Source: Pirellulales bacterium (GTDB lineage Bacteria > Planctomycetota > Planctomycetia > Pirellulales > JAEUIK01). Taken from it: DNA of 64,000 nt. This document shows, piece after piece, positions 1,872-47,288 of this stretch (positions within the stretch are counted from its first letter, which is position 1; each line of letters opens with the position of its first letter). A program made the position numbers and the translations under genes. The notes under the pieces are model-generated. The model saw nothing but the letters and a program-made list of their open reading frames with translations, did no database searches and had not been told where the DNA came from. The stretch spans positions 1 through 64,000 of the forward strand of contig JAHBXR010000022.1 in NCBI GenBank assembly GCA_019636335.1, written 5' to 3'.

Positions 1872-3173
1872 CTAGCCGAACAACTCCATCACCGGGGAGC
1901 CGCCATCGACAATCCGGATGGGCCGTCCGATGGGACTCATGTTCTCGATCGAGCCGTCGATCTTCAGGCTCTGGCAGAGCGATTGGAACAGGTCGGTCAC
2001 CGCCACCGGACGCTCGGTCGGCTCGACGCCCGCTTCATCGGTAGCGCCGATCACCTGGCCCCCCTTGATGCCGCCCCCTCCCAGCACGACGTTGAACGAG
2101 CGCGGGTAGTGGTCGCGTCCCACGCGGGGATTGATCTTCGGCGTGCGGCCGAACTCCCCCATCCAGACGACGAGCGTCGAATCGAGCAGGCCGCGGTCCT
2201 GGAGGTCGTCGATGAGGGCCGCGAAGGGTCGATCGACCTGTCCGGCCAGATTCTTCGTTCGCCCGAAGACGTCGTCGTGCGTGTCCCAACTGCCGGCCGA
2301 GACTTCGACGAAGGTCACGCCCGACTCGATCAGGCGACGCGCCAAGAGGCAGCCGTTGCCGAACTCGGTCTCGCCGTACGCGGCGCGGGTCTGGCTCGAC
2401 TCTTCGTCCAGCTTGAAGGCCTTCATCTGCGAGCTGAGGACCATCCGCGCCGTCTTCTTGTAGAGGCGTTCGTGATCAGCCACGAGATTCGCGCCACCGG
2501 CCGAGGCGTATCCCTCGTCCAGGTTGCTTAGCAAGCCGAGGCGGCGCTGATAGCGCTTCTCGTCGGTCGCCAGGGCGACGTTCGCCGGCAACTTGCTCGC
2601 GTCGGGCATGAGGAACGGATCGAAGTCGACGCCGAGGAAGCCTCCCGTTCCCGTGTTGCGAAACTGTTTGCCGATCCGCACAAACGACGGGATCTCGCAG
2701 GCGGCATCGGCGATCTGCTGCGAACAGATCGAACCGAACGCCGGATGCTTGACGCTGGCCGTGGGGGCATAGCCGGTGTGCAGCAGGAAGCTGGCCCGCT
2801 GGTGGTTGCCTTCCTTGCTCGTCATCGAGCGAATGATGGCCAGGTGTTCCATGCGTTGGGCCACCTCGGGAAAGCGGTCGGCGATCTGGATGCCGGGGAC
2901 CGAGGTGTCGATGGCCGCCGTTTCGCCCCCATTCTCGTGCCCCGGCTTGGGACTGAACGTTTCGAACTGACTCGGTCCTCCCTGCATCCACAGCACGATG
3001 CACGCCATGCCGCGGCGGCGCAGATCGCCGGCGCGCAGGCTCATGCCGTCGGTCCAACTCATCGTGCCGGCCGCCAAACCGGCGAGCGAGATTCCCTTGA
3101 GGAAATCGCGGCGGCCGACCACCTGCTGACGATCGACGCTCACTCCCATCACGCGGCGCAGGGCGGTGTGCAT
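1872..3173 (-). CDS. DUF1501 domain-containing protein (Tat-exported)
   Basis: A 433-residue DUF1501 family protein, a sulfatase/alkaline-phosphatase-like family greatly expanded in Planctomycetota. The N-terminus carries a twin-arginine signal (RRDFLKGISLAGLAAG, residues about 21-36), so export as a folded protein is expected. Diagnostic segments include MQGGPSQFETFSPKPG, SWDTHDD and MGEFGRTPKINPRVGRDHY, the last being the hallmark C-terminal motif of the family. It lies 58 bases downstream of the DUF1549/DUF1553 gene on the same strand; this pair is the standard planctomycete arrangement, and the two products are believed to act together outside the cytoplasm, function unproven. The ATG at 3173 is used; the Tat motif falls about 20 residues in. 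Confidence 0.9.
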   Translation of the reverse strand: MHTALRRVMGVSVDRQQVVGRRDFLKGISLAGLAAGTMSWTDGMSLRAGDLRRRGMACIVLWMQGGPSQFETFSPKPGHENGGETAAIDTSVPGIQIADRFPEVAQRMEHLAIIRSMTSKEGNHQRASFLLHTGYAPTASVKHPAFGSICSQQIADAACEIPSFVRIGKQFRNTGTGGFLGVDFDPFLMPDASKLPANVALATDEKRYQRRLGLLSNLDEGYASAGGANLVADHERLYKKTARMVLSSQMKAFKLDEESSQTRAAYGETEFGNGCLLARRLIESGVTFVEVSAGSWDTHDDVFGRTKNLAGQVDRPFAALIDDLQDRGLLDSTLVVWMGEFGRTPKINPRVGRDHYPRSFNVVLGGGGIKGGQVIGATDEAGVEPTERPVAVTDLFQSLCQSLKIDGSIENMSPIGRPIRIVDGGSPVMELFG

Positions 3174-3231
3174 GACTCGGTGACCTTTGCAGAGGAAGTT
3201 ACTGAGGACGACGGGGTGATGGAAACGGCGA

Positions 3232-4911
3232 CTACTTGCGATGCAGGAACTCGGTCGAGTTCACCAGCGCCCAGAGAATATCTTCGAACGCCTCGCGACG
3301 ATCGCCCACGCGGGCGACATACTGCAGGCACTTTTTCATCTCGTCAGCGCTCGGCTCGCGCGCCAGCGTGCGCAGATACAACTCGACCACGACCTCGTCG
3401 TTGTCCGCGACGCCTTCCAAGAGACGCGCCAGTTGCGTGGTCGGCTTGCTAGCGTTCAGCGCGGCGGCGATGATCGGCGAGTTCATCATCATCAGCGCCT
3501 GATCTATCGAGCCTTGCACCTCATCGCGCGGGTCGCTCGGGTCGAAGCCGAACACGGCGAGAAACTGCCCGCGCGGCGTGCCTCTCCCGGCGCGAAGCAC
3601 CTGGTACTCCCGGCGGGCATCGGCCGTGGCCGCTTGCTCTTCGATCCCCAGGGCCATGGCCACCGAGTCGAACAACTGGTCGGCCCGGAGCCGCTGTGGG
3701 CAGTTGGCCACGAAGGGAGTCTGTGCGGAATTTCGGCGCGGCTGGCTCGTGCGCTGGTAGGCCTCGGTCGAGGCGATCGTGCGCAGCAGCCACTTGAGAT
3801 CGTGGTCGTGCGCGACGAACTGCTCGGCCAGATAATCCATCGTCTGCGGCGCGCTGCACTCGCGATCCGGCCCCAGATCGTCGATCGGTTCGTAGAATCC
3901 TTCACCGACCATCTCGGCCCAGACGCGATTGACCAGCGCCTTGGCGAACCAGGGATTTTCCGACGAGGTCATCCACTCGGCGAGCGTCGAGCGGCGCTCG
4001 GCATCGGTGAGTCCCTCTTCCAACTTCTCTCCCGTCACGAAAAAGACGGGCTGCATCAGCGTGCCGTCGGCGGCGGGATCGTCGAGGTCGGGCATGAAGT
4101 GCTCGACCCGCTTCAACCCCGTCGGCTTCAACGGCTTTTTGTTCTTCGCATTCGCCGGACGCGAGCGATCGGTGATGAAGATCTCGAACCCACGGCGCTT
4201 GCCCTCTTCCGTCTTCAAGGCACGCACGCCGAGGCGGGGAAAGAACGCCGCCAGCTCGTGAAATTGCTCGCGCTTCCAGCGGTCGGTCGGGTGATCGTGG
4301 CACTGGGCACATTGAATCTGCACGCCCAGGAAGACACGCGAGATCTCGGCCGCCGTCTCGGGGATCTGCCCCCATTGCGACGCGATCAAGGCCGTCGCGC
4401 CATGCTCGTGCAGTTCACCTTTGGCGGTAATGAATTCTCGCGCCAGATCGTCCCAACGGGCGCCGGCGTTCAGTTCCTTCGTCAAATACTCGACCACGCT
4501 GACCGATGAGATCAGCGCGCGTTCGTCGCTGCGGCGCGAAAGCATCACATCGCGCCAATAGCGAGCCCAGTTCTCGCCATAGCGAGGATCGGCCAACAGA
4601 CGATCGATCGTCGCCCCGCGCTTGTCGGGTGAAGGATCGAGCGAGAAGGCCGTGACCTCCTCGGGCGTGGGCATTTCTCCGACCAGGTCGAGCGAGACGC
4701 GACGCAAGAACGTTTCGTCGTCGACGATCTCCGCCGGCACGATCGATCCATCGCTCGGTGACTGAAACAGCTCTTCGGCAAGGAGCCGATCGACCTGCGC
4801 AGCCGCCTGCCGCGTCTCGACCGACTCCGCGCGAGCCACCACCGGGCTCATCCACAGCACCAGCGCCCCAAGGACGGCGAAACCACGCGCGAAGACCTGA
4901 ACGTGCCGCAT
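3232..4911 (-). CDS. DUF1549/DUF1553 domain-containing protein (PSCyt2/PSD1)
   Basis: A secreted 559-residue protein. From the start at 4911 (MRHVQVFARGFAVLGALVLW) there is a Sec-type signal peptide ending near VVARAES. Next comes the DUF1549 domain with IQCAQCHDHPTDRWKREQFHELAAFF split by its typical CxxCH (heme-like) motif, then the DUF1553 domain with ENPWFAKALVNRVWAEMVGEGF and the C-terminal ALVNSTEFLHRK ending. Both domains are close to restricted to Planctomycetota and relatives. First gene of the pair with the DUF1501 protein. The longer frame to 4992 would put 27 extra residues before a clear signal peptide, so the inner ATG is chosen. It may carry a covalently bound heme; the biochemical role is unknown. 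Confidence 0.9.
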   Translation of the reverse strand: MRHVQVFARGFAVLGALVLWMSPVVARAESVETRQAAAQVDRLLAEELFQSPSDGSIVPAEIVDDETFLRRVSLDLVGEMPTPEEVTAFSLDPSPDKRGATIDRLLADPRYGENWARYWRDVMLSRRSDERALISSVSVVEYLTKELNAGARWDDLAREFITAKGELHEHGATALIASQWGQIPETAAEISRVFLGVQIQCAQCHDHPTDRWKREQFHELAAFFPRLGVRALKTEEGKRRGFEIFITDRSRPANAKNKKPLKPTGLKRVEHFMPDLDDPAADGTLMQPVFFVTGEKLEEGLTDAERRSTLAEWMTSSENPWFAKALVNRVWAEMVGEGFYEPIDDLGPDRECSAPQTMDYLAEQFVAHDHDLKWLLRTIASTEAYQRTSQPRRNSAQTPFVANCPQRLRADQLFDSVAMALGIEEQAATADARREYQVLRAGRGTPRGQFLAVFGFDPSDPRDEVQGSIDQALMMMNSPIIAAALNASKPTTQLARLLEGVADNDEVVVELYLRTLAREPSADEMKKCLQYVARVGDRREAFEDILWALVNSTEFLHRK

Positions 4912-5332
4912 CGGTAAAAAGTCCTTCGTGGGCTTTGGTCCACTACCGGTCTGTCGGGCCCGGGGCACTCGTAGTGCCGTTTCTATAAACAACTATCGTC
5001 CGCCACGGTTTCGGCGGTTTTGCCAGATGATAACATCTCCCCCCGAAATCCAACTTTCAACCGTGACCCGCCCCATTCTCGAACCCGATGACGCTGGAAG
5101 GGGCTCCATACGCCGCTGGTTGCCCTTTCGCCACACGATGTTTCGGCACGGCAACACGGTAGAAGCAACTCCAGCTTGGGCCGACTTTGCCGCTCAAACT
5201 TACAAGCCATTTCCCGGCAATGCTTTGCGCCTAGGACAGGAGAGCGTCAAGGCGGGGCGCCGCCGCTGGCATTATGCTTGCATTGCAGGAAGTGTCGTCC
5301 CGATCGACCGTCGCCCGACCACTGGCACCAGC
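4912..5332. other. Divergent intergenic region
   Basis: 421 bases separate the divergent DUF1549 and acyltransferase genes. The minus strand has an extended -10 element TGTTATCAT (5036-5028) with a weak TTGGAT 14 bases upstream of it, which could drive the DUF1549/DUF1501 pair. The plus strand has a TATGCT (5273-5278) about 55 bases before the acyltransferase start. I see no hairpin of note and no convincing small gene. Confidence 0.3.
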
Positions 5333-26510: not shown

Positions 26511-27566
26511 ATGCGGAATTCGTCGATCTTGGGTCTCGTGGCGGCGATCATGCTCGTGGCCCTGCCAACCATTCCCGCCTTGGCGGAAGCTCGCATCGGG
26601 TCGCACGCCTGTTCGACCCCCGGTTGTGAAACGTGCGCCCCGGCCGCGCCGAAGCTGGTCGAGCGCACGGTTCTTGTGCCCGAGATGTCCCTCGAGACGC
26701 GTACCGTCATGGTGCCCGAATATCGCCTGGAGCAGCGTCAGAAGAAGATCATCGTGCCGCACTATATCCCGCGTCAGGTGACGGTCGAGCGTCCCTACAC
26801 GATCTACCATCCCAAGTGCGTGACGAGGACGGTGCAGTGCATGGTGCGCACGCCGGTCTACGCCGACGTGCAGGAAAACTATACAGTCTGCGTACCGCAG
26901 CTCGTGACGAAGACCGGCACGCGCAAGGTGTGCAAGGTCGTAACGGCGCAGAAGACGCAGAAGGTGGTCGTCGACCAGGGGCATTGGGAAGACGCGCCGG
27001 CCGCTGGCTGCGGCGCCGTCGTCGACTGTGCGAGCCCGGTCGATTGTTGCCGCCCGCGCTGCCGCTTGTTCCGCCGCTGCAGCACCGGCTGCGGCACCGC
27101 GACGTGCGGCACGGCCGGCTGTGGCAGCCGAGTCTGGGTTTCGAACCCGGTCGAGAAGGAAGTGGCCTACACCTGCCAGGAAAAGGTCTGGGTCGACGAA
27201 CCGTACACTTGCCAGGTGACGGTGATGAAACCGGAGACGCGCACCCGCACGGTGCGCCGTTGTACCTGGAAGTTCGAACCGCGGATGAAGCAGGTGCAGC
27301 AAACGATTCTCGAGGCCGAGCATGGCACGAAGACCTGCACCGTGACGCGCTACGATTTCGCGCCGGAGGAAAAGACGGTCGTCTGCTGCGTATGCGTCCC
27401 TCACTTCGTGCCCAAGCAGGTGCAAGTCCAGATTTGCCGCATGGTGCCGAAGACGGTGCAGGTACCCGCGCCGTGCGAGACGCCCTCCTGCGCTGCCCCC
27501 AATTGCTGTGAGAACGGTTGCTGCCCGACCGGCCACGGCCATCCGCGCCGTTGCCGTGGGTGCTGA
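26511..27566 (+). CDS. Cysteine-rich YTV-type planctomycete wall/surface protein
   Basis: A 351-residue exported protein with signal peptide MRNSSILGLVAAIMLVALPTIPALAEA. I count about 32 cysteines (9%). The body is two beta-rich blocks of alternating valine and basic/aromatic residues (TVLVPEMSLETRTVMVPEY, ENYTVCVPQLVTKTGTRKV, EPYTCQVTVMKPETRTRTV, TVVCCVCVPHFVPKQVQVQ). The blocks are separated by a Cys-rich hinge (about residues 163-205) and closed by a Cys-rich tail ending HPRRCRGC. Repeats built on YTV/YTC with flanking VP are the mark of cysteine-rich proteins reported from the Rhodopirellula baltica cell-wall fraction. I infer a disulfide-cross-linked envelope protein. No enzyme motif is present. 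Confidence 0.75.
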   Translation: MRNSSILGLVAAIMLVALPTIPALAEARIGSHACSTPGCETCAPAAPKLVERTVLVPEMSLETRTVMVPEYRLEQRQKKIIVPHYIPRQVTVERPYTIYHPKCVTRTVQCMVRTPVYADVQENYTVCVPQLVTKTGTRKVCKVVTAQKTQKVVVDQGHWEDAPAAGCGAVVDCASPVDCCRPRCRLFRRCSTGCGTATCGTAGCGSRVWVSNPVEKEVAYTCQEKVWVDEPYTCQVTVMKPETRTRTVRRCTWKFEPRMKQVQQTILEAEHGTKTCTVTRYDFAPEEKTVVCCVCVPHFVPKQVQVQICRMVPKTVQVPAPCETPSCAAPNCCENGCCPTGHGHPRRCRGC

Positions 27567-29540: not shown

Positions 29541-32500
29541 CTACTTCGCTTCCGGCGGGGCGAAGGTGACGACGGCCTTGCCGTCCGCGCCGTTCCAGAC
29601 ATGCAGCACGCTCGCCTCGCCGCCGGCGGCCACGAGACGTCCGTCGGGCGTGACGGCGCCGCCGTGCAGGAAATCGGTCGCGCCGCCAAAGTTCTTCACC
29701 GCCTTGCCGTCGCCGACCTGGAACTGCCGCACCGTCTTATCGCCACTCGAGGCCACCACCGTCTGGCCGTCGGACAGGAAGGCCACGCTCGTGACCTGCT
29801 TGCCGAAGCCGGCGATCGTGCGCTGTTGCTCGCCCGAATCGAAGTTCCAGATCTTTACGACCTGATCGGCTCCGCAACTGGCCAGCAGCTTGCCGTCGGG
29901 ACTCCAGGCCACGCCGAGTACGTGGTGCGTGTGTCCTTCGAAGGCTTTGACGAACTTGCCCGTGGCGATCTCGAAGACTTTGACGAACTTGTCGGCGCCG
30001 GCCGAGGCGAGATACTCGCCGTCGGGCGAGAAGGCGACGCTGAACACGGTGTCGCTGTGGGCGTCGGCAAAATCGTGCGCCAGCTTGCCGTCGGCCAGGT
30101 TCCACAACTTCAACTCGCCCGAGCGTGAAGGCTCGCCGCCACCACTGGCCAGTAGTTTACCGTCGGGCGAAAAAGCCAACGCCAACACGCGATCGACAAG
30201 CTGCGAATCTTCGACCGCCAGCGGGCGATCGGCCGGAGGACCAAGCGTCGCCTGCAGGTGCCAGTTCGGATAGAGTTGCCACACGGCTGCAGTGCCATCG
30301 ACCGTGGCGCTGGCCAGCAAACCGTTCGGGGTAAAGGCCAACGCCCCCGCGGCGACGCCGCGACCAGCAAACGTATCGAGCGGTAGACCGTTCTCGGCCT
30401 GGTAAACGTGGACCAGAGGATCGTCGCCGGCGGTGGCGAGTTGCACGCCGTCGGGCGAGAACGCGACCGTCCGCAGCGGACGCTCGTGGCCGGCGGCTTC
30501 TTGTTCGGCGGCGGCTTTCGCCTGGGCGGTGCTCGCTTCGCGCGATTGAGCCTTTTCGAGCCGCGTCTGGGCCTTGGGCACGGCGTCGGTGGCTCGAGCC
30601 AGCGCGTCGTCGGCATCGCGCGAGGCCTTCTTGGCATTGGCCTGCGCGGTGGTGGCGGCCTTGGCGGCGGCATCGGCATCGGTGGCCGCCTTGGTGGCGG
30701 CGGCCTGCTTGTCGGTGGCCTCCTTCGCGGCGGCGGCGGTCTGCTCGACTTCGGCCGCGGCCGTGGCCTGGGCCGCCGTCGCTACCTTTAGCGCCTCGGC
30801 CCGCGCGGCGGCGAGTTGCGTGGTGCTTTCGGCCACTGCTTTGGCTTGAGTGCCCGCCGCTTCGCTGTCGGCGGCCACTTTATCGGCGGCCGCTTTGGCC
30901 TCGACCAGCGCTTTATCTTCGGGCGCCTTGGCGAGACTGGCGGCAAGCGCGGCGGCCGAAGCCTTGGCCGCGTCGACCGCCTGGGCCACTTCAGCCGCCG
31001 CCGCGGTAGCCTTGGTCGAGGCGTCGGCCGCCAGGGTCATCGCCTCGGTCTGCGCCGTGACGAGTTGATCGGCGGCAGCCTTGGCATCGGCCTTGGTCTT
31101 GGCCGCCTCGGTGGCGGCGGTGGCCAGCTTGTCGGCCTCGGCCTTCGCTTCGGCGGTGGTCTTGGCGAGCGCCGTGGCCTCGGCGGCGGTCTTGTCGGCG
31201 GCGGCCAGCGCCTCGACCGACGTCTTGGCAGCGGCGGTCTTCTCGGTGAGATCTTTTTCCGCGGCGGCGAGCGCCTCGGTCGCGGCGCCGCGCTCCGCCT
31301 GCCACTTGGCGGCTTCGGCCGTGGCGCGGGCGAGCGCCTGGTTGGCCGTGTAGTCACCCTGCAACTCGACGACCTGGGCGCCGTCAGCGGCATTCCACAA
31401 CCGAGCGAGATTATTCAGACCGACTGAGGCGATGCGCGAACCGTCGGGCCGCACCGCCACATCGGCCACCGGACCCGCGTGATCCATCTGCCGCGCAACC
31501 GTTCCTGCCGCCAGATCCCAGAGGCGGACGATACCGTCCTCGCCGCCCGTGACGAACTGCTTGCCATCGGCAAACAGGGCAATCGCACTGGCCGGTGCTC
31601 CGTCGATCGCAATCACGCGCGGGGCCGCAAGCTGTGCCAGGCGAAGTTCTTGTTCGCCGGAGGTGAGGATGACGCTTTTCGCGTCCGCGCCGCGGGCAAA
31701 AACTCCCCAGTACGCACCGGCCGTCCGCGGTGCCGCCTGCAAGGCCTGCCCCGAGGCGCGATCGAGCACGACGAGCGCGCCTTCGTCAGCCACGGCGGCA
31801 ACGTGAGCGGCATCGGGCGAGAAGCTCACCTGCCGTACCGGCTTAGAAAAGTTGCCGATAGGAGCGCCACTGGCGGCGCCATCGCCCGCTTGAGCGATGC
31901 GTACCTTGCCGTCGGCGCCGCCCACGGCGAGCAAGGCGCCATCGCTGCTCAGCGTGAGCGAGGTCGCCGGCGCTTCGAGCGAAACGGTAAACCGCGCGGC
32001 GCCATCAGCGAGTTGCACGGCGGCCAACTTGCCTTCCGTGCCCGCGACGAAGATCGTGCCACGATCGGCGCTCGGCGCCAACGCTGCCACTTGTCCGACG
32101 GGAGTCGCTAGTGCGCGTTCGACGCGCAGCGGCGTGGCTCGCCACAGGCGATCGCTGGTGCCGATCAACAGTTCGCTGCCGGGCGTGAGGACGCCATAGC
32201 TCAACTCGCCCACGGATGCCGCCACTTCCAGCGGTGTCGCGCTGGCGGCGTCAAACACCGTGACGCGACGATCGGCGGTGCCGACCGCCAAACGTTGCCC
32301 CGTGGGATCGAACGCCAGCGACCGGACCTGCGTCGCCGGCGTGGTTGCCTCACCGGCCAGCGTGCCGTCGCGCCGAACGACGCGCAACGAATGATCGGCG
32401 GCCAAGAGTGCCAGGCTTTCTCCATCGCGACTCACGGCGCCAGCGAGGAGCGGCTTGCCCGGCTCGATGAGATCCTTGGCAGTGCCCTCGGCCACATCGA

Positions 32501-34466
32501 TCGCTTTGAGCGCTCCATCGGCGGCGATCGTGAAGAGGGCCGCGCCATCGGGCGTCGCGCCCACGGCGAGCAGGCCTGAGCCACCTGCATCGAATGACTT
32601 TACTTCCGCACCATCGGCGGCATTCCATTGACGCAGGCTGCCATCGGCGCCTCCGCTGACGATGGTGGCGCCATCGCCCACGATGGCAACCGCGGACACC
32701 GCGGCGGGATGACCGGTGTAGCGTGCCAACTCGCGCGGTTCGTCGCCGAGTTGCCAGACGCGCGCCGTCTTGTCGCTCGAGCCGGAGACGAGTCGCGAAC
32801 CCTCGGCATTAAAGGCCAAGGCGTGGATGGCCGCTTCGTGCCCCGTAAGCGTAGCGACGACGTTCCCGTCGGCGATCGTGCGGACGAGAATCGCCGTCTG
32901 CCCGCCGACCGTCGTATCGGTGGCGAGCAGCTTGCCATCGGGGCTGACCGCGGCGACGGTAGCGGCCGCGTCCCCCGAAGCGGTCAGCTCGCGCGTCGAC
33001 AAGTCGCCCGTGCGCGAAACGAGCAGTTGGTTCCCCGCGATTGCAACGAGCTTTCCCCCCGTCGCATCGAGCGCCAATCCGGCGGGCAGGTTTGCCGCCA
33101 GGCGGAACTCGTTCAGCAGTTTCGCACCGGCCAGATCGAAGAGCCTCGCGAGGCCATCGTCCGATGCGGCCACGAGCTTCGTGGCGTCGCCCGAGAGGGC
33201 AAGCGCCCGAACCGGCGTGTTGCCCGCTTGGAGCTTATGCTTCACCTCGCGACTGGCGACGTCGCGGATCTCGATCGAACCGTCGGCGGCGCCGCGATAG
33301 AACGTGACGCCATCGGCCGAGGTCATCGCCGCGGTAGTGGGGGAAGCGAGCTTTTCGCTGAACGGCAAAGCCACGGGGGTCTCCGCGACGCGGATCGCGC
33401 GATCGGCGCCGGCCAGCAACACTTGGGCGCCGTCGGCAGTGAGCGCCACATCGTTGACAGGTACCGGGGCGTCGAACTGGCCAAGCTGCTTGCCTTCGGC
33501 AACATTCCAAGTGCGCAGCGAACCGTCGGCCGAGCCGGAGACCAATCGTGCCCCGTCGGCCGAAAAGACCAGGCCAGTGACGACGGCCGTATGGCCAGCC
33601 AGCGTGTGAATCGTCTTGCCATCGGTCAGGGCAACGACGCGAATGCGCCCCTCGTCGTGACCGGTGGCGAACCACTTGCCGTCCGCGCTCGTGGCGGCGG
33701 AGCGCGCCGGACCGAAACCATCGGCACTCATCTCGATGGCCCGGGCGTCGCGGGGACGTTCCCAGATCTTGATATCGCGATAGCCGCCCGAGGCGAGGCG
33801 ATATCCCTCGGGGCTGAAGGCCAGTGACTGCACGAGGTCCAGCTCGGCCACCCCCGGCTGCTCGTAAATGCCCGCCTGCAACAAGCGTTCATCGGTCAAG
33901 CGGCAGATCGTTTTGCCGCTGGGGAGGTGATAGATGAAGATCTGATTCGCGCGCGCCGTGGGGGCGAACTGCCCATCGGGCGACAGGGCCACGGCGTAGA
34001 TCGGATTCACGCCCGCGGGAAGCGGTTGCCAAGCCACCGCTTGAGAACGCTTCACTTCGCCCTTCGCTCCCTGGTCGATCCATAGCTTGAGCAGGCCCAA
34101 CTCTTCGGGCGTGAGAGGCGAGGCGCCAACCTTGTTGTCCTTCGGCGGCATCACTGGGTCGCTCTCGCCGGTGGCGACCAACAGCAGCATGCTCGCGTCG
34201 GCACTGCCGGCCTCGACCGCTGGACCACTCGCGCCCCCCTGGGCGATGGTTTGCGGCGTCTCGAGCACGAGCTCGCTCTTCGCCACCGCTTCGCTATGGC
34301 AGGCCAGGCAGTTGCGGCGCAGGATGGGCAGGATCTCGCTCTCGAAATCGACCGGCTCGTTGCGCTCGATCTTGGCGACCGCGATCGGTTCGTCCGCCTG
34401 TACCGCAGCGGCAAATGCGACCAGGGCAATCAGGGGCAGTACGAGCTGGGCTTTGCGTTTTCGCAT
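29541..34466 (-). CDS. Giant WD40 protein with planctomycete cytochrome-c motif and alanine-rich coiled coil
   Basis: A 1641-residue exported protein: signal peptide (residues 1-24), PSCyt1-type domain with CLACH at 53-57 (CxxCH heme-binding), then WD40-like blades, a very Ala-rich coiled coil (about 1045-1325), and more blades to the end. I count 21 blades before the coil (for example VQSLAFSPEGYRLASGGYRDIKIWER, VRSLAFDPTGQRLAVGTADRRVTVFD) and 7 after it (for example VFSVAFSPDGEYLASAGADKFVKVFE). This would be three plus one seven-bladed propellers. The family belongs to planctomycete large cytochrome-like WD40 proteins of unknown function, thought to be periplasmic or surface-located. It lies 74 bases after the PPC-domain gene and is probably co-transcribed with it. 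Confidence 0.85.
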   Translation of the reverse strand: MRKRKAQLVLPLIALVAFAAAVQADEPIAVAKIERNEPVDFESEILPILRRNCLACHSEAVAKSELVLETPQTIAQGGASGPAVEAGSADASMLLLVATGESDPVMPPKDNKVGASPLTPEELGLLKLWIDQGAKGEVKRSQAVAWQPLPAGVNPIYAVALSPDGQFAPTARANQIFIYHLPSGKTICRLTDERLLQAGIYEQPGVAELDLVQSLAFSPEGYRLASGGYRDIKIWERPRDARAIEMSADGFGPARSAATSADGKWFATGHDEGRIRVVALTDGKTIHTLAGHTAVVTGLVFSADGARLVSGSADGSLRTWNVAEGKQLGQFDAPVPVNDVALTADGAQVLLAGADRAIRVAETPVALPFSEKLASPTTAAMTSADGVTFYRGAADGSIEIRDVASREVKHKLQAGNTPVRALALSGDATKLVAASDDGLARLFDLAGAKLLNEFRLAANLPAGLALDATGGKLVAIAGNQLLVSRTGDLSTRELTASGDAAATVAAVSPDGKLLATDTTVGGQTAILVRTIADGNVVATLTGHEAAIHALAFNAEGSRLVSGSSDKTARVWQLGDEPRELARYTGHPAAVSAVAIVGDGATIVSGGADGSLRQWNAADGAEVKSFDAGGSGLLAVGATPDGAALFTIAADGALKAIDVAEGTAKDLIEPGKPLLAGAVSRDGESLALLAADHSLRVVRRDGTLAGEATTPATQVRSLAFDPTGQRLAVGTADRRVTVFDAASATPLEVAASVGELSYGVLTPGSELLIGTSDRLWRATPLRVERALATPVGQVAALAPSADRGTIFVAGTEGKLAAVQLADGAARFTVSLEAPATSLTLSSDGALLAVGGADGKVRIAQAGDGAASGAPIGNFSKPVRQVSFSPDAAHVAAVADEGALVVLDRASGQALQAAPRTAGAYWGVFARGADAKSVILTSGEQELRLAQLAAPRVIAIDGAPASAIALFADGKQFVTGGEDGIVRLWDLAAGTVARQMDHAGPVADVAVRPDGSRIASVGLNNLARLWNAADGAQVVELQGDYTANQALARATAEAAKWQAERGAATEALAAAEKDLTEKTAAAKTSVEALAAADKTAAEATALAKTTAEAKAEADKLATAATEAAKTKADAKAAADQLVTAQTEAMTLAADASTKATAAAAEVAQAVDAAKASAAALAASLAKAPEDKALVEAKAAADKVAADSEAAGTQAKAVAESTTQLAAARAEALKVATAAQATAAAEVEQTAAAAKEATDKQAAATKAATDADAAAKAATTAQANAKKASRDADDALARATDAVPKAQTRLEKAQSREASTAQAKAAAEQEAAGHERPLRTVAFSPDGVQLATAGDDPLVHVYQAENGLPLDTFAGRGVAAGALAFTPNGLLASATVDGTAAVWQLYPNWHLQATLGPPADRPLAVEDSQLVDRVLALAFSPDGKLLASGGGEPSRSGELKLWNLADGKLAHDFADAHSDTVFSVAFSPDGEYLASAGADKFVKVFEIATGKFVKAFEGHTHHVLGVAWSPDGKLLASCGADQVVKIWNFDSGEQQRTIAGFGKQVTSVAFLSDGQTVVASSGDKTVRQFQVGDGKAVKNFGGATDFLHGGAVTPDGRLVAAGGEASVLHVWNGADGKAVVTFAPPEAK

Positions 34467-34540: not shown

Positions 34541-37123
34541 TTACTTCTGCACGTTCAAGGGAATGGGCTGATGACTCTCGACCGTCTTGCCGTCCAGGTC
34601 GAAGGTTGCCCGCACGACGACGTGGGCATGCTCCCCTTCGGTCGCTTCGGCGGAGGCCTGGATGACGAGCTTCGCGTCGGTGGCATCGGCAGCCAACTCG
34701 ACCGCTTCGGTCGTAACACCACCGATGTGCGGCGGCACGACGAGATCGAGCTTTACCGCCCCGGCAAAGTTGTGGCGCCGCGTGACCTTCACGGGAATCT
34801 CGAGCGAAGCGCCGCGTTTGATCTCGCCCTTGCCCGGCACCTCGGGCACCATCACCAGCGGGCCCGGCACGATCGACACCGTCACGGGCACGACCGACTC
34901 GGCGACGTTGACGTCTTTCTTATCGCTGCCGTCGGCATTCTTTGTGAAGGGAACCGGGGCCGTCGCCGACAGATAAACCGTGTACGTTCCCAGCGGCGCA
35001 TCCTGGGGAAAGTAGAGACGAACCGTACCTTCCGCGGCCCCTTCGGCGATCGTCACCGCATCGTTCTGTACCTTCTCGGGCAGGGCTGCTGCCGTCAGGG
35101 CGATTGGCTTGGCAAAGTCGCCGCGGCGCGTGACCTTGATCGGTAGCACCAATTGCCGGCCCTGCACGAAGGTTTCGCGCGCGACGGGCGAATCGACCGA
35201 GAACGGCGCAAGCGAACCGACCGAAAGGCCGATGTCGCGCGTCAGCCGCGCCGGCGCGACGATTCCCGTCAAGGGCCACGTCACCTGCGCGCCGCGCACC
35301 TCGCGCACGACGTCGGCGTCGCCGATCTTGGCGCGGCCGGTCAGCTCGATCGTGCCGCTCCAGTCGGGTGCTTCCTCGGCGGCCGTCAGCACGAGATCCG
35401 CCCTCGTCTGTCCGGGGCCGATCGTCGCGCCCGGACAAGTGACTCCCTCGGGCAGCCCCTCGACCTGCACGTCGATCGAGTCGTTGAATCCATCGCGGCG
35501 GAAGGCCAGCACCGAGAGCCGCGCCGTGCCCCCCTTGCGCAAGAACGTCGTCCACGGATTCGGCGCCTGCACGCCATTGATCGGAAACTCCGCGAGCGCC
35601 ACCAGGCGGAAGTCCGGCATCTCGCGGCGGACGCTCAGGCGGTAGACGAACGTCGGGTCCCCCTGGGTCTCGCGATATAAATCTCGCACCGCGATGCGAT
35701 AGTGGCCCTCCTCGGGCGCTGCGAAGCGGAACAGCGGATCATCGCTGTTCGTCGCGAAGGCCAATCCGCCAATATTCGCCCCCGAGTCGTCCTGTTCGGT
35801 GATCTCGGTGATGGTTTCCTCGCCCTTGTCGTCCTTCGTCACGCGTTCGACACGCAGCGTCGGATCGGTGGGCAAGCCGCGGCGCTGCGAGATGATCTCC
35901 AGGACGAGCACTTCCCCCTTCTTGGCATCGAAGGAATACCAGTCCACATCGCCGATGCTCTGCAACTGGCCATAGATCTCGCAGGGTGCCACGATCGCTT
36001 GCGCCGCGGCACGATCGTTCGGTTCGACTTCAGCCACGACCGGCGCCGATGCGATGCCAATCGTCACGGGATTCGAGCTGCCGACGGGCGAAGCCACGCG
36101 ATAGGGTGCGCCGTCGAAGCTGGCGGCCGCCGGGCCAATCGACTCATCTGAGACGAGACTCGCCCGGGCGGGCTCCTCGCCAGGCAGGGCCAGCTCGACG
36201 TCGAGCTGCTCGAGCCGCCTGCCGTCGCTCGTCGTCAACTCGGTGGGCACGCCTCCCGGAAGGTTGCGACCATACACCGAATATGTGGCCGTCGTGCCTG
36301 CCGCACCCGCGGGGGGCAACACGTAGTCGATCCACGGTCCCGTGCCGAGCGTCAGGCGATAGAAGTAGTCGGGTCCCCCCCCGAAGACGAAGTCGTAGAC
36401 CTTCAACTTGTATTCGCCGTCGACCGGCAACGTCACGTCGATCAGCGGATCCGCACCGCGGTAGTCGCGGCTCATTTCCACGAGCGAGCCCGAGGGATCG
36501 TAGAGTTCGAGCGTCGCATCCATCCGCGAGTCGATGCTGGCGGCATCGCAGTAGGCGATCAACCGCGTGCCTGCCTGGGCGGTAAAGCGAAAGCAATCGG
36601 TATCGCGTGCCGGTTCGGATCGCCCCCACACGACCGTATTGAGGGGCACCTCCATGGCCTGACCGAGCACGTTGTTCGGCTCGGCCTCGCTCAATTCGAC
36701 TCGGTCGCCGACGACAAAGGCGCGCGGATTCGACAGACCGTACGGGCCTGCCGCGCGGACCTCGTACGTGCCGACGGGTACGTCGGGCGCGACCGTTACT
36801 TTGAACTGGTTCGCGACGGGGGTTGGCTCGGTCTGCCCTTCGGCAACTTGTGTCTTTTGCACCGCGCTGATACCCGGGTGCGAGAAGTGCAGACGATTCA
36901 CTCCTTCGAGATCGGCGCCGGAGATGATCGTCAACTCGAACTCCGAGCCCTGCTTGCCCCCCGCCGGCGCGACCGCCGAGAGACGCGTGGCCGGCAATTG
37001 CGCGAGCGCGGTGCTCGACCATACCCCGATCAAAGCCGCGAACAGGCAGGCAGGCCCCACGCGATCGAGCCAGAGCATAGCTACCCGGGGATGGAGTCGG
37101 CCGTGACCGTCGCGGGGCGGCAT
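34541..37123 (-). CDS. Secreted PPC (pre-peptidase C-terminal) domain protein
   Basis: An 860-residue exported protein. The start at 37123 has GAGGA 8 bases upstream; a second ATG at 37078 begins the hydrophobic signal segment (MLWLDRVGPACLFAALIGVWSSTALAQ). After an N-terminal Ig-like region there are two PPC-type domains, each opening with an EPNN/EPND motif (LSEAEPNNVLGQAMEVP, VAEVEPNDRAAAQAIVAP) and containing D-W-F/Y cores (DTDCFRFTAQAGTRL, DVDWYSFDAKKGEVLVLEI). About 420 further residues look like NPCBM/Ig-like repeats ending in a final beta domain. Together with the downstream WD40/cytochrome protein it forms a pair common in Planctomycetota; PPC domains usually target or assemble secreted enzymes. 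No catalytic domain is evident. Confidence 0.75.
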   Translation of the reverse strand: MPPRDGHGRLHPRVAMLWLDRVGPACLFAALIGVWSSTALAQLPATRLSAVAPAGGKQGSEFELTIISGADLEGVNRLHFSHPGISAVQKTQVAEGQTEPTPVANQFKVTVAPDVPVGTYEVRAAGPYGLSNPRAFVVGDRVELSEAEPNNVLGQAMEVPLNTVVWGRSEPARDTDCFRFTAQAGTRLIAYCDAASIDSRMDATLELYDPSGSLVEMSRDYRGADPLIDVTLPVDGEYKLKVYDFVFGGGPDYFYRLTLGTGPWIDYVLPPAGAAGTTATYSVYGRNLPGGVPTELTTSDGRRLEQLDVELALPGEEPARASLVSDESIGPAAASFDGAPYRVASPVGSSNPVTIGIASAPVVAEVEPNDRAAAQAIVAPCEIYGQLQSIGDVDWYSFDAKKGEVLVLEIISQRRGLPTDPTLRVERVTKDDKGEETITEITEQDDSGANIGGLAFATNSDDPLFRFAAPEEGHYRIAVRDLYRETQGDPTFVYRLSVRREMPDFRLVALAEFPINGVQAPNPWTTFLRKGGTARLSVLAFRRDGFNDSIDVQVEGLPEGVTCPGATIGPGQTRADLVLTAAEEAPDWSGTIELTGRAKIGDADVVREVRGAQVTWPLTGIVAPARLTRDIGLSVGSLAPFSVDSPVARETFVQGRQLVLPIKVTRRGDFAKPIALTAAALPEKVQNDAVTIAEGAAEGTVRLYFPQDAPLGTYTVYLSATAPVPFTKNADGSDKKDVNVAESVVPVTVSIVPGPLVMVPEVPGKGEIKRGASLEIPVKVTRRHNFAGAVKLDLVVPPHIGGVTTEAVELAADATDAKLVIQASAEATEGEHAHVVVRATFDLDGKTVESHQPIPLNVQK

Positions 37124-37670
37124 GCGAAATCCTCGTGGTTGGCAGTCTTGAGCGGGCGCAGCAAGCAGGCAAGGCCGTCGGGCCGAACCGTAATAGCGAG
37201 CGTCCGAAGGTGGGGCGATCCGCCTGGCGGCCGTACGGCCAAAGGGTCGGGCTGGTGGTGTGTGGGGCGGGCATCTGGGCGGGAGCCAAGGGCTTCCGTG
37301 GACAGACGTTCGAGCAGGCATGCCGGAGGTGCTGGGTACCGGCCGCCACCCGGTCAGTTATCATAACCAGGGTCTGCGGACCCCGGAAACAAAAAAACGC
37401 CCCTGCCAGCGTCGAAGAGCGTCGAACGTTGCCTGCCCCGCCGACCGGAAAAATCCGCCTGGTTGAACCTTGCAAGGCGAGTCCCGGGCCAGGATGCGCG
37501 AACTCGGCCCGGTCGACTATTGTCAATCGACGAGTGTTGGCTTAGCATCAATCGTTCTGGCCATTTGGCAGGTCCGCCGCAGGGAGCCCTGGGCGTCGCC
37601 GGAGTAGTGGCAATGCTGCCCGCCGACGCATCCGCCGTCCCTGAATACTAGCGTCCCGCCAGGCCCATTT
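37124..37670. other. Intergenic region upstream of tRNA-Asn
   Basis: 547 bases between the divergent PPC gene and the tRNA. A promoter candidate is present at 37520-37548. The rest has GC-rich segments, some direct short repeats (GCGTCGAAGAGCGTCGAAC near 37410), and no gene that I can support. Confidence 0.4.
37520..37548 (+). promoter_or_regulatory. Candidate promoter for tRNA-Asn
   Basis: TTGTCA (37520-37525, 5/6 to the -35 consensus), a 17-base spacer, and TAGCAT (37543-37548, 4/6 to the -10 consensus), about 120 bases upstream of the tRNA. The fit is moderate and the leader is rather long. Confidence 0.35.
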
Positions 37671-43453: not shown

Positions 43454-46400
43454 TTACGACTTGCGCCAGCGCCAGGGGCCAATGTCGCGCGTGCCGCGCT
43501 GGCGGTCATCGCGATGTGCCACCTCGGTGACGAGCAGTGGGAAGAGGACCGCCGTCGTGGCATGGACCTGGCTCGGCGACATCTTCTTCGGTCGGGCCGG
43601 CTTGGCCTCGACGGCAGGTTGCTCGCCTGCGGCCGACTTATTCGCGGCGCCTGTCGGATTGGCCGCAGTACCGGCCTGCGCGTCGCGAGCCGCCAGCGCC
43701 AGTGGATCGACCTGCGGCGCGTTCGGACGCGACCTTAGGGCGAAGCTCACCCCGCCCGACTCCGTGCGGTCGGCCAGCAAGACCTCGAGCACGACGTCGG
43801 CCTGGGCCAGATCGAGCGAGGCGACGGCCGCTTCGTACAGCTCGTCTTCCGAGGGCTCGTTCTCGGCGGCGGGAGCGTGCTGCTCGGCGGTTGCTCCTGG
43901 CAGTGCGCCGGTGCTCCGGTGGGCGTTGTTCTCCTGCTTGTTCGCGGGATTCGCCCGATTGTCGTTGACCTTTTCCTGGCCCCCCTCTTCATTCTGAGGG
44001 CGTTGGACCTCGTGACGGTCGAGCGGCGGCAGCAGCGCCTGCACGCCCGTGTCGGGCCCGAAGCGGAAGTTCGGCGCGCCGGCGATGAACTCGGGGGGCT
44101 CGCCCACAAAGTCGTTTCCACCCCCCGGTGCTGTCACGGTGCTGACCAGGGGGAGCACTGGAGGCAACACCGCGCCACTGAGTAGCGTGGCCGTGCTGGC
44201 GAGTTGTGCCGCGAAGGGGCCGCCGGGGAACCAGGCCAACGGCGCGTCGTTGCCCACCTGAACGGTCACCACCAGCGACGACGAGAGCCCTTCCGAATCG
44301 GTGACGATCACCGTGAAGTTCACCTGCCGCGATTCTTCGTCCTCGGCCGTTTGCCAGGTGACGAGCCCGGTCGCGGGATCGATCGTGGCGCCTGCCGGTG
44401 CGTCGTCTCCCAGGCTGAAGGAGATCGTCTGCGTGGGGACATCGGAATCGTTGGCCACGACCGTGAAGCTGAGGAGATCTCCCTGCGAGACGAGGAGCGT
44501 TGGAATCGGGTTGATCGTGGGGGCCGAATTCGTCTCGATCACCTCGATCTGGAAGGTTTTCGAATCGAGGCCCCCGTTGCCGTCCGAAACTCGCACCTCG
44601 ATGGCGAACGTCTGGCCGCCATGCAGTTCGCCAGCGGTGAACGAGAAGGCCCCGGTCGAAGGATCGATCGTCGCGCCGTCCGGCGCGCCGGGTCCGAGCG
44701 AGTAGGTGAGCGTCTGGGCGGGCAAGTCGGCATCGGAGGCCGAGGCGGTGAACGAGACCGTACCCCCCTCTTCGATGACACGATCGACGAGCGCGGCGAG
44801 CGACGGCGGCGTGTTGACTTCGCCCACGGTGAAGCGCACGGTGCGATCGCCGGCCAGCCCGGTGTCGTCCTTCGCGCGGATCGTGATGTCGTAGGTGCCG
44901 GGGCCCTGGCTTTCGCTGGGGGTCCAGGTGAACTCACCCGTCGTGGGATCGATCGCCGCGCCGTTGGGAACCGTTCCCACGAGCGAGTAGGTCAGTTGGC
45001 TCGGGGGCGTGTTGGCATCGGTGGCCGTGACGATGATCGAGAAGGGCACCCCTTCGTTCAGCGACTGATTGGCAATCGCGGCGATCGTAGGGGGGACTTC
45101 GACATAGACCTCGAAGGGCTGATCGGTGATGGCGCCGAATTGATCGCGCGCCCGCACGACGACCGCGGCGCCATTGGGTTGTCCGACCGTCGGCACCCAG
45201 GTGATCTGTCCCGTGTTGGGGTCGATCGTCATGCCGGCCGGACGCTGTTGCAGCTCGTAGACCAGCCCCAGCGAGCCTTCTTCGTTCGTCTGGGCGTTGT
45301 AGCTATAGGTCAAGCCGGCGATGGCGGTCAGGACGGGCGTGCTCGTAAAGATGGGCGCCGTTGTATCGACGGTAATCGTGATCGGGTCGGCAATTGCCGT
45401 GAGCGTGCCGCCGTCGTCGCGATAGGCGGTGATGACGTGCGTGCCGTCGGCCAGCGGCACGGCGCCGTTGGTCGTCACGGTGGCCACGCCGTTGGCGTCG
45501 GCCACGGCGGAGCCGATAATGTCGTCGCCCCGTTTGAGCACGACCGTGCTGTTGGCGTTCGTGCCGACGCGGAACTGCATGAGCCTGCTCGGCGTGTTGT
45601 TGCGATCGGTGACCAGATCGCTCGAGCTGGCCCCGTTGTCGGTCAGCATCTGGAAATCGACGACATTGATCGTCAGCAACTGGCTGTCCGACGTCGTGGC
45701 ATTCGATGCCTGGTCGCCATCACGGACCGCGAGCCGCACCGTGTACGTGCCGGCCGGAGCCGTGGTATTGGTGATCTTGAAGGTCGTCGTACCGACTTGT
45801 CCGTCGGGCGTGACGGTCGCGGGCAACGCTTCAATTCCGAAACCGGATAGGCCGGTCAGCGTCCCGAAGATCATCTGCCCACCTTCGACGTCGGTGGCGC
45901 TGACGGAGAAGGTCGTCGACCCGCCGCGTGGAATGTTGACCACCGCCGGAGTCGGATGGAGGAATGGGCGGTTGTTCGTCGTGTCGGCCACGATCGTCAC
46001 CTGGAAGGTGCGCTGGGCCGTGCCGCCATTGCCGTCGCTGACCGTCACCGTCACGTTGGCGGTACCGGTCGTGCCCTCCGGCGCCGAGAGCCTTAGCACG
46101 CCGTTCTCGTGATCGACGAAGACCGACACGTTCTGCATGAAGACGGGGGACAAAGGCACGTCATTCGTGCCGACGGGAATCCCCTGAATCGCTGCCCGAA
46201 TGCTTTCGCCTTCCGTCAGGAAGCCGAAGATCGAGTGGTTGAAATCGAGATGCCGCGTGGCGGTCGCGGTGATGAAGAACTGCGAGTCGTTCGTGTCGTC
46301 GCTGGTTTTGGCCATCGACAAGATGCCCTTGCTCGTGTGCTGGAGCAGGACGTTAAACTCGTCATCGAAATTGACGCCGGAACCACCGGTGCCGTTGCCC

Positions 46401-46915
46401 GAGGGATCGCCACCCTGGATGACGAACGGATTCCCCGGCGAGGCGATGCGGTGGAAGGTGAGCCCGTTATAGAAACCCGACTGCGCGAGCTGCGCGATGC
46501 GACCGGCGGTATTGGGCGCGAGGTCGTCGAACAACTGGAAGATCATGTCGCCGTTGATCGCCACGTCGCCCGACTGGCCCGAGCTGGCATGTACGACCGA
46601 GATCTTCATGCTGCGATTCCCGGTGGGAATCGTCAGGCCCAGGTTGCCGTTGTCGGAAATGGCCGAGTAGGTGAGCTGGTCGCCGTCGGCGTCGAAGCCA
46701 TCGAGCGCGATGTGCAGCGGCGCGCCAGCCTGCAAGGTGACGTTCGAGATGGTGGCGAGCGTCGGGGCCGCGAAGACGCAGCGCTCTTCGAGCTGCTCGG
46801 GGGCATGGCGTCGAGCACGCGCGGGCAACGACTCTCCCAGGCGACGTGTCCGCCGACGAATGCGCTCACGAGAGGTGGACGGCAGGGGCGAGACGGTGCG
46901 CGGTTGTTGTGCCAT
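43454..46915 (-). CDS. Giant surface protein: LEERCVF N-terminus, cyclophilin domain and Ig-like repeats
   Basis: An 1153-residue protein starting MAQQPRTVSPLPSTSRE. Residues 41-48 read QLEERCVF, matching the Q-LExRxxL/F motif that marks the N-terminus of many exported planctomycete proteins. A cyclophilin-type peptidyl-prolyl isomerase domain follows (about 115-280: GLTFHRI, PFVIQGGDP, SMAKTSDDTNDSQFFIT, HLDFNHSIFGF). Then come cadherin/Ig-like domains, including four He_PIG units with the core xGATIDPxTGxFxW (MTIDPNTGQITW, AAIDPTTGEFTW, ATIDPSTGAFSF, ATIDPATGLVTW), and a Pro/Ala/Gln-rich tail. Fusing a cyclophilin to a surface Ig array is known in Planctomycetota. It probably acts outside the cell in adhesion or matrix assembly. 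Confidence 0.85.
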   Translation of the reverse strand: MAQQPRTVSPLPSTSRERIRRRTRRLGESLPARARRHAPEQLEERCVFAAPTLATISNVTLQAGAPLHIALDGFDADGDQLTYSAISDNGNLGLTIPTGNRSMKISVVHASSGQSGDVAINGDMIFQLFDDLAPNTAGRIAQLAQSGFYNGLTFHRIASPGNPFVIQGGDPSGNGTGGSGVNFDDEFNVLLQHTSKGILSMAKTSDDTNDSQFFITATATRHLDFNHSIFGFLTEGESIRAAIQGIPVGTNDVPLSPVFMQNVSVFVDHENGVLRLSAPEGTTGTANVTVTVSDGNGGTAQRTFQVTIVADTTNNRPFLHPTPAVVNIPRGGSTTFSVSATDVEGGQMIFGTLTGLSGFGIEALPATVTPDGQVGTTTFKITNTTAPAGTYTVRLAVRDGDQASNATTSDSQLLTINVVDFQMLTDNGASSSDLVTDRNNTPSRLMQFRVGTNANSTVVLKRGDDIIGSAVADANGVATVTTNGAVPLADGTHVITAYRDDGGTLTAIADPITITVDTTAPIFTSTPVLTAIAGLTYSYNAQTNEEGSLGLVYELQQRPAGMTIDPNTGQITWVPTVGQPNGAAVVVRARDQFGAITDQPFEVYVEVPPTIAAIANQSLNEGVPFSIIVTATDANTPPSQLTYSLVGTVPNGAAIDPTTGEFTWTPSESQGPGTYDITIRAKDDTGLAGDRTVRFTVGEVNTPPSLAALVDRVIEEGGTVSFTASASDADLPAQTLTYSLGPGAPDGATIDPSTGAFSFTAGELHGGQTFAIEVRVSDGNGGLDSKTFQIEVIETNSAPTINPIPTLLVSQGDLLSFTVVANDSDVPTQTISFSLGDDAPAGATIDPATGLVTWQTAEDEESRQVNFTVIVTDSEGLSSSLVVTVQVGNDAPLAWFPGGPFAAQLASTATLLSGAVLPPVLPLVSTVTAPGGGNDFVGEPPEFIAGAPNFRFGPDTGVQALLPPLDRHEVQRPQNEEGGQEKVNDNRANPANKQENNAHRSTGALPGATAEQHAPAAENEPSEDELYEAAVASLDLAQADVVLEVLLADRTESGGVSFALRSRPNAPQVDPLALAARDAQAGTAANPTGAANKSAAGEQPAVEAKPARPKKMSPSQVHATTAVLFPLLVTEVAHRDDRQRGTRDIGPWRWRKS

Positions 46916-47288
46916 AGCGTGCAATCGCAGGGGTCTGACGTGATCGCCTTCGAGACTTTCGCCGCGCCTGAATCGTGATTCAGCGGTGCCGAGCAACGTG
47001 ACGCCGCGAACGGGCCGATCGGCCCTGCGGCAGCTCGAGACATCTCTGTTCCACCAACGGCGAGCGCGACGCGCCGACTGCGGGAAGCCGGGCGATTTTT
47101 TCAGTAAAACGGAGCGCTCCCGGCTCGGCAAGCAGGAATTCGTAAGATTTGGCCCGGAAACGTCCTAGACGTGCTTACGGAGGCGGTACGTGAAAGGTTT
47201 GCCGATCCTGCCGAGTTTGCGTGACTGGGCTCGATCGCTACAACCCTCAGGGTCGCGCCGGCGGGGGAGTCCATCGCTCGCGCTACCG
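46916..47288. other. Intergenic region between the surface protein and tsaE
   Basis: 373 bases that hold the promoter of the surface-protein gene (leftward) and the 3' end of the tsaE transcript. The longest open stretches here are extensions of the surface-protein frame without signal-peptide character. I see no convincing promoter pair, hairpin terminator or small gene. Confidence 0.3.

Follow-up and report, generated by a model that had tools for sequence, protein, structure and literature searches.

We identified, on the reverse strand of the window (the whole 64,000-nucleotide stretch of DNA that was analysed), a gene whose predicted product combines an export signal and a cytochrome domain with WD40-like blades and a long coiled coil. 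Coordinates and length of the open reading frame (29541-34466) match the window sequence exactly. Its features and its upstream partner gene are listed below, together with the evidence for each; L031 is an ortholog of 1029 aa with a named record, labelled Pirellula sp.

29541..34466, (-): whole gene, 1641 aa, with signal peptide, PSCyt1 domain, 28 WD40-like blades and coiled-coil hairpin
34395..34466, (-): Sec-type signal peptide, residues 1-24, MRKRKAQLVLPLIALVAFAAAVQA, judged by inspection
34137..34310, (-): PSCyt1 mono-haem cytochrome domain, 50.3 bits against a Pfam cut-off of 22
33726..34025, (-): blades 1-2, putative opening part of outer ring A (proposed as blades 1, 2 and 24-28); blade scan, paralog matches, L031 model
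33357..33725, (-): blades 3-5, putative opening part of ring B (proposed as 3-5, 20, 21, hairpin, 22, 23); blade scan, insertion points, paralog matches
32982..33356, (-): blades 6-8, putative opening part of ring C (proposed as 6-8 and 16-19); blade scan, insertion points
32112..32981, (-): blades 9-15, probable innermost ring D, seven blades without counterpart in 14-blade relatives; insertion point (8/10), window model
31611..32111, (-): blades 16-19, putative closing part of ring C; blade scan, insertion points
31344..31610, (-): blades 20-21, putative part of ring B ahead of the hairpin; blade scan, blade comparison
30492..31343, (-): predicted antiparallel coiled-coil hairpin, Ala-rich; arm-length pairs, heptads, L031 model
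31069..31229, (-): 63-bp tandem repeat, 2.6 copies, 72% match, equal to the 21-residue unit of the first arm
30894..30920, (-): predicted hairpin tip EDKALVEAK (consensus xNxxLxxAK); tip-motif scan
30222..30491, (-): blades 22-23, putative closing part of ring B past the hairpin; blade scan, paralog matches
29544..30221, (-): blades 24-28, putative closing part of ring A; blade scan, paralog matches
34541..37321, (-): upstream partner gene with a PPC domain, syntenic in relatives

The PSCyt1 domain (PF07635) scored well above its curated cut-off and contains the motif CLACH (residues 53-57), which the earlier note had called cytochrome-like; its reading of a secreted cytochrome-type protein agrees with this domain and with the signal peptide. 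Met-Pro-Pro follows downstream at residues 106-108, and both the CxxCH motif and a following Met-Pro are kept in 84/84 sequences, the window protein counted among them. The window's own genome encodes 32 PSCyt1 domains. The PPC gene lies directly upstream, and the first ATG is probably upstream of its true start. Where the flanking DNA is long enough, the gene order in most relatives is PSCyt2/PSD1 (with Big_2), PPC and PSCyt1-WD40; the best PSCyt2/PSD1 relative in the window's genome (62% identity) is on another contig.

Pfam matched WD40 to the window protein with 378 bits, and the best 25 Pfam matches of the protein are all WD40-type propeller families. Blades were located with a spacing-aware chain, which replaced an ordinary hmmsearch with a custom blade profile because that search missed weak blades. 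The chain scored 907 for the window protein, with no score above 6.7 among 100 shuffled versions, and contained 19 scored blades before the coil and seven after it. The gaps that hold the unscored blades 15 and 19 measure 79 and 82 residues, each equal to two blade lengths, and blades are scored at ordinal positions 15 and 19 in the collinear 21-blade orthologs L099 and L107; the total of 21 + 7 = 28 blades counted in the earlier note therefore stands. The profile match, the scan of ~40-residue repeats and the four-strand pattern of the models together place the protein among the WD40 beta-propellers. The blade count alone does not tell which blades share a ring.

We gathered ~100 relatives from the same order and phylum, and quote blade counts for strictly spaced cases only; automatic totals of 8, 9 or 22 blades, which are due to missed C-terminal blades or long loops, were excluded. 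Among the 62 unambiguous relatives, defined as those with no inferred blade before the coil, the pre-coil blades number seven in 53, fourteen in three and twenty-one in five, so that 61/62 conform to the exact multiples of seven noticed earlier; the exception, L110, has just four scored blades there. After the coil most relatives have seven blades, and those with five or six scored have gaps wide enough for the remainder. On a tree built from the conserved regions, the number of blades before the coil changes eight times, every time by seven, and these changes together with the counts of 7, 14 and 21 indicate that blades are, as read from sequence, gained or lost in whole sevens. The position of the coil is conserved in the orthologs. 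The orthologs do not conserve the 21/7 split as such; most of them are 7/7, and 14/7 and 21/7 are also present. In the genomes G105, G136, G285, G077 and G121 a 7/7 copy occurs beside a 14- or 21-blade copy, and thus long and short forms coexist.

Arm lengths of the coil were measured from the last pre-coil blade to the tip motif, whose seeds were chosen by eye from the alignment, and from this motif to the first post-coil blade. They come in the pairs (142,105), (163,126), (184,147) and (205,168) residues, with a difference that stays at ~37 residues, roughly the blade length included in the first figure. This relation holds in 36/38 relatives with a recognisable tip, some of which share a small insertion; the remaining two have a total coil length on the grid described below, and the motif scan most likely picked the wrong tip in them. 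With these two mis-tipped relatives left out, the lengths of the arms correlate at 0.99 and 0/10,000 permutations were as tight. Total coil lengths fall on a 42-residue grid in 43/65 cases (p ~1e-33 against a uniform distribution, a value that ignores relatedness and is inflated by it), and in none of 65 on a 14-residue grid alone. About one third are off the 42-residue grid, some of them sharing +4 or +8 by descent, and very short coils and several irregular relatives from outside the order follow the rule less closely. L127 (1466 aa) has an extreme hairpin with a coil spacing of 667 residues, or 289 plus nine times 42, which is still on the grid.

Heptads are phase-locked to the tip on both arms and show a 21-residue autocorrelation, and an AlphaFold model of L031 has helices at residues 470-587 and 595-715 with the turn (588-594) at the predicted tip. 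Taken with the arm-length pairs and the 63-bp repeat, these features identify the coil, at the level of sequence and model, as an antiparallel hairpin of two equal heptad arms folded back at the tip, both of which change together in 21-residue (three-heptad) units where the tip is recognisable. Each arm is ~140 residues long in the window protein, which, at 1.5 A for each residue, corresponds to ~21 nm. The earlier note had taken the coil for a stalk that separates one propeller from three, a picture at odds with the arm pairs and the L031 model, in which the ends of the hairpin lie together.

Blade-by-blade comparisons placed the extra seven blades of 14-blade relative to 7-blade forms after blade 5 (10/10 comparisons), and those of 21-blade relative to 14-blade forms after blade 8 (8/10). 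Neither 5 nor 8 is a multiple of seven or a boundary of rings 1-7, 8-14 and 15-21, and on sequence grounds both insertions look as if they fall inside rings. Shorter PSCyt1 paralogs from the window's genome and from relatives have exactly seven blades in 21/21 cases where blades were found, and were matched to the ortholog blades (7/7 numbering) after background correction, that is, with generic blade similarity removed from the match scores. Paralog blade 1 then matches ortholog blade 1 or 2 best in 21/21, not 8 or 9; the raw profile scan had given 15.1 bits for ortholog blade 8 versus 13.7 for blade 1 and 12.4 for blade 2. Paralog blade 2 matches ortholog blade 10, and a b-c loop lengthened by four residues is present in ortholog blade 10 (41/41) and paralog blade 2 (21/21) and in no ortholog blade other than 10. 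Blade 24 of the window protein bears a GGEPSRSGELK hairpin insertion. Paralog blade 5 has no clear ortholog counterpart. Since the paralog order runs from 1/2 to 10, the stretch of blades 3-9 with the coil has the look of a separate propeller that interrupts another ring, itself complete, between blades 2 and 10.

Both AlphaFold models were built from two-row alignments and have a mean pLDDT of 63 (L031) and 54 (window residues 1-1045); ring membership was read from aligned ranges, not coordinates. Each of these low-confidence models contains one closed ring, and 2YMU is the best Foldseek match for both. In the model of L031, a protein of 14 blades, the ring spans residues 159-1006, with 282 residues at ~1.9 A. 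One aligned structure begins at residue 171 and thus includes part of blade 1, which puts at least part of this blade in a ring with the C-terminal blades. In the window model, residues 497-780 closed as one ring (Z 31) that corresponds to blades 9-15, the exact seven missing from the 14-blade forms. A second ring resembles blades 3-8 plus 16, unlike the ring C proposed here. Structure prediction, which the earlier note had suggested as a check of ring closure, agrees for two of the rings with the nested grouping proposed below, within the low confidence of the models.

We propose that the propeller cluster grew as complete propellers were inserted into loops of those already present. Ring A, the outermost, would consist of blades 1, 2 and 24-28 and enclose ring B (3-5 and 20-23). 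Ring B would bear the coiled-coil hairpin after blade 21 and ahead of blade 22 and would enclose ring C (6-8 and 16-19), which in turn would enclose ring D (9-15). The hairpin may project as a stiff arm of ~21 nm whose two helical halves would have to stay equal in length and so change together. The nesting of rings A and B is probable, as is ring D; which blades make up rings B and C is, in detail, a working model. The claim for the architecture is moderately strong, and we infer the closure of the rings. An exported PSCyt1 cytochrome with nested propellers, an equal-arm hairpin and a putative redox role is, as a whole, the explanation we favour with reasonable though far from full confidence; a complete Russian-doll fold of four levels, made by three successive complete-ring insertions and with a hairpin lengthened only by equal 21-residue units, we hold to be about evenly balanced between right and wrong.

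The arrangement in the earlier note, with three rings (1-7, 8-14, 15-21), a stalk and one further ring (22-28), is probably wrong in view of the paralog matches, the insertion points and the L031 model. As a rival explanation, it has the rings in sequence, with the hairpin linking the first three to the fourth and with new rings arising by unequal crossing-over at any blade, which preserves multiples of seven. It is the simplest reading, and 7n blades on one side of the coil and seven on the other follow from it directly; under the nested reading they are a coincidence of 2+5 and 2+5. Aip1 and Utp21 have two rings formed in sequence by blades 1-7 and 8-14, except for one swapped strand (PMC3897721). 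Against such an arrangement in the window family stand the paralog blade order of 1/2 then 10 and the L031 model, of low confidence like its counterpart, in which the ring joins blade 1 with C-terminal blades. The insertion points 5 and 8 are no ring boundaries either, although crossing-over inside rings could also produce them, and we regard sequential rings as possible but rather unlikely. The low confidence of the models, the weak blades near residues 460, 753 and 918 and the relative with four scored blades would also suit rings that are not uniformly seven-bladed (such as an open super-propeller or the 7 + 8 arrangement of Apaf-1), with the sevens an accident of descent. At least eight changes of blade number, all by seven, and the seven blades of each of the 21 single-ring paralogs make this very improbable.

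Two further alternatives concern the coil and the cytochrome domain. That the coil is a flexible low-complexity linker, with arm lengths matched by inheritance and not by constraint, would fit its Ala-rich composition, the common descent of the relatives and the weaker 42-residue grid outside the main clade, yet the coil length class changes 11 times on the tree, both arms changed together in every relative with a recognisable tip and the heptad phase is fixed to the tip; we give this reading hardly any weight. The PSCyt1 domain might instead be a haem-free fold or export module of an adhesive or structural scaffold, which would be compatible with nesting. PSCyt domains are described as functionally unknown and planctomycete PSCyt proteins as lacking a tested function (PMC5615132), but the strict conservation of CxxCH and Met-Pro speaks for haem, and we think a haem-free module unlikely. 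Redox reactions have been suggested for PSCyt domains (PMC2754498).

From the conserved neighbourhood with PSCyt2/PSD1 and PPC genes we infer an exported complex of three proteins in which the window protein would be a periplasmic redox scaffold, with haem binding likewise predicted. The PSCyt1 haem may pass electrons to, or receive them from, the PSCyt2/PSD1 and PPC operon partners in the planctomycete periplasm, the propellers could be docking sites for these partners, and the hairpin arm might set spacing or dimerise the complex. In L117 (4442-9382), PPC-type and PSCyt1-WD40 regions are in one open reading frame of 1646 residues, a fusion that supports a functional link between the operon products.

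Genes that encode WD40 in addition to PSCyt domains are on record (PMC5615132). The window protein resembles known planctomycete proteins with PSCyt1 (PF07635) and PSCyt2/PSD1 (DUF1549/DUF1553) in its PSCyt1 domain above the Pfam cut-off and in the PSCyt2/PSD1 gene that usually adjoins it in relatives, and differs in the putatively nested multi-propeller region and the hairpin arm. No description of PSCyt1 with WD40 and a coiled coil, of nested propellers or of the hairpin arm turned up in the papers searched. The window protein would share with Aip1, Utp21 and 2YMU several seven-bladed WD40 rings in one chain; those proteins have two rings in sequence, whereas its rings appear inserted within rings and are accompanied by a coiled-coil arm. 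Three-propeller proteins of the DDB1 type form one ring from both chain ends, as proposed here; as generally described, DDB1 has no WD40-cytochrome combination and no hairpin, and fewer levels of nesting. As in SMC and Rad50, the chain goes out and back along an antiparallel coil. Propellers flank this coil where SMC and Rad50 have ATPase heads at its ends, there is no hinge, and the ~140-residue arms have 21-residue steps and a tight turn; we claim no kinship. SMC arm lengths fall in preferred classes (PMC5344682). The hairpin described here forms a natural series of arm lengths, with both sides changing together, that is well suited to testing what sets the length of a coiled coil.

According to published work, new propellers arise when single blades are amplified (PMC9218822). 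Growth in this family seems to proceed by setting one whole propeller inside another, and the Russian-doll fold, if true, would mean that closed repeat proteins can grow via whole-ring insertion instead of single-blade amplification. Related forms with a single ring and with 14, 21 and 28 blades are at hand, which makes the growth path testable step by step. The analysis also supplies an anatomy for one abundant planctomycete cytochrome family.

Elsewhere in the window, a second planctomycete pair is encoded at 1872-4992 (-), with DUF1501 (1872-3173) and PSCyt2/PSD1 (3232-4992). A Cys- and Val-rich repetitive protein of 351 residues at 26511-27566 (+) has a signal peptide, motifs like VPEMxLETRTVMVPEYRLEQR and no Pfam match. 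In the 1225-residue protein at 43454-47131 (-), many Ig-like domains follow a cyclophilin-type isomerase domain.
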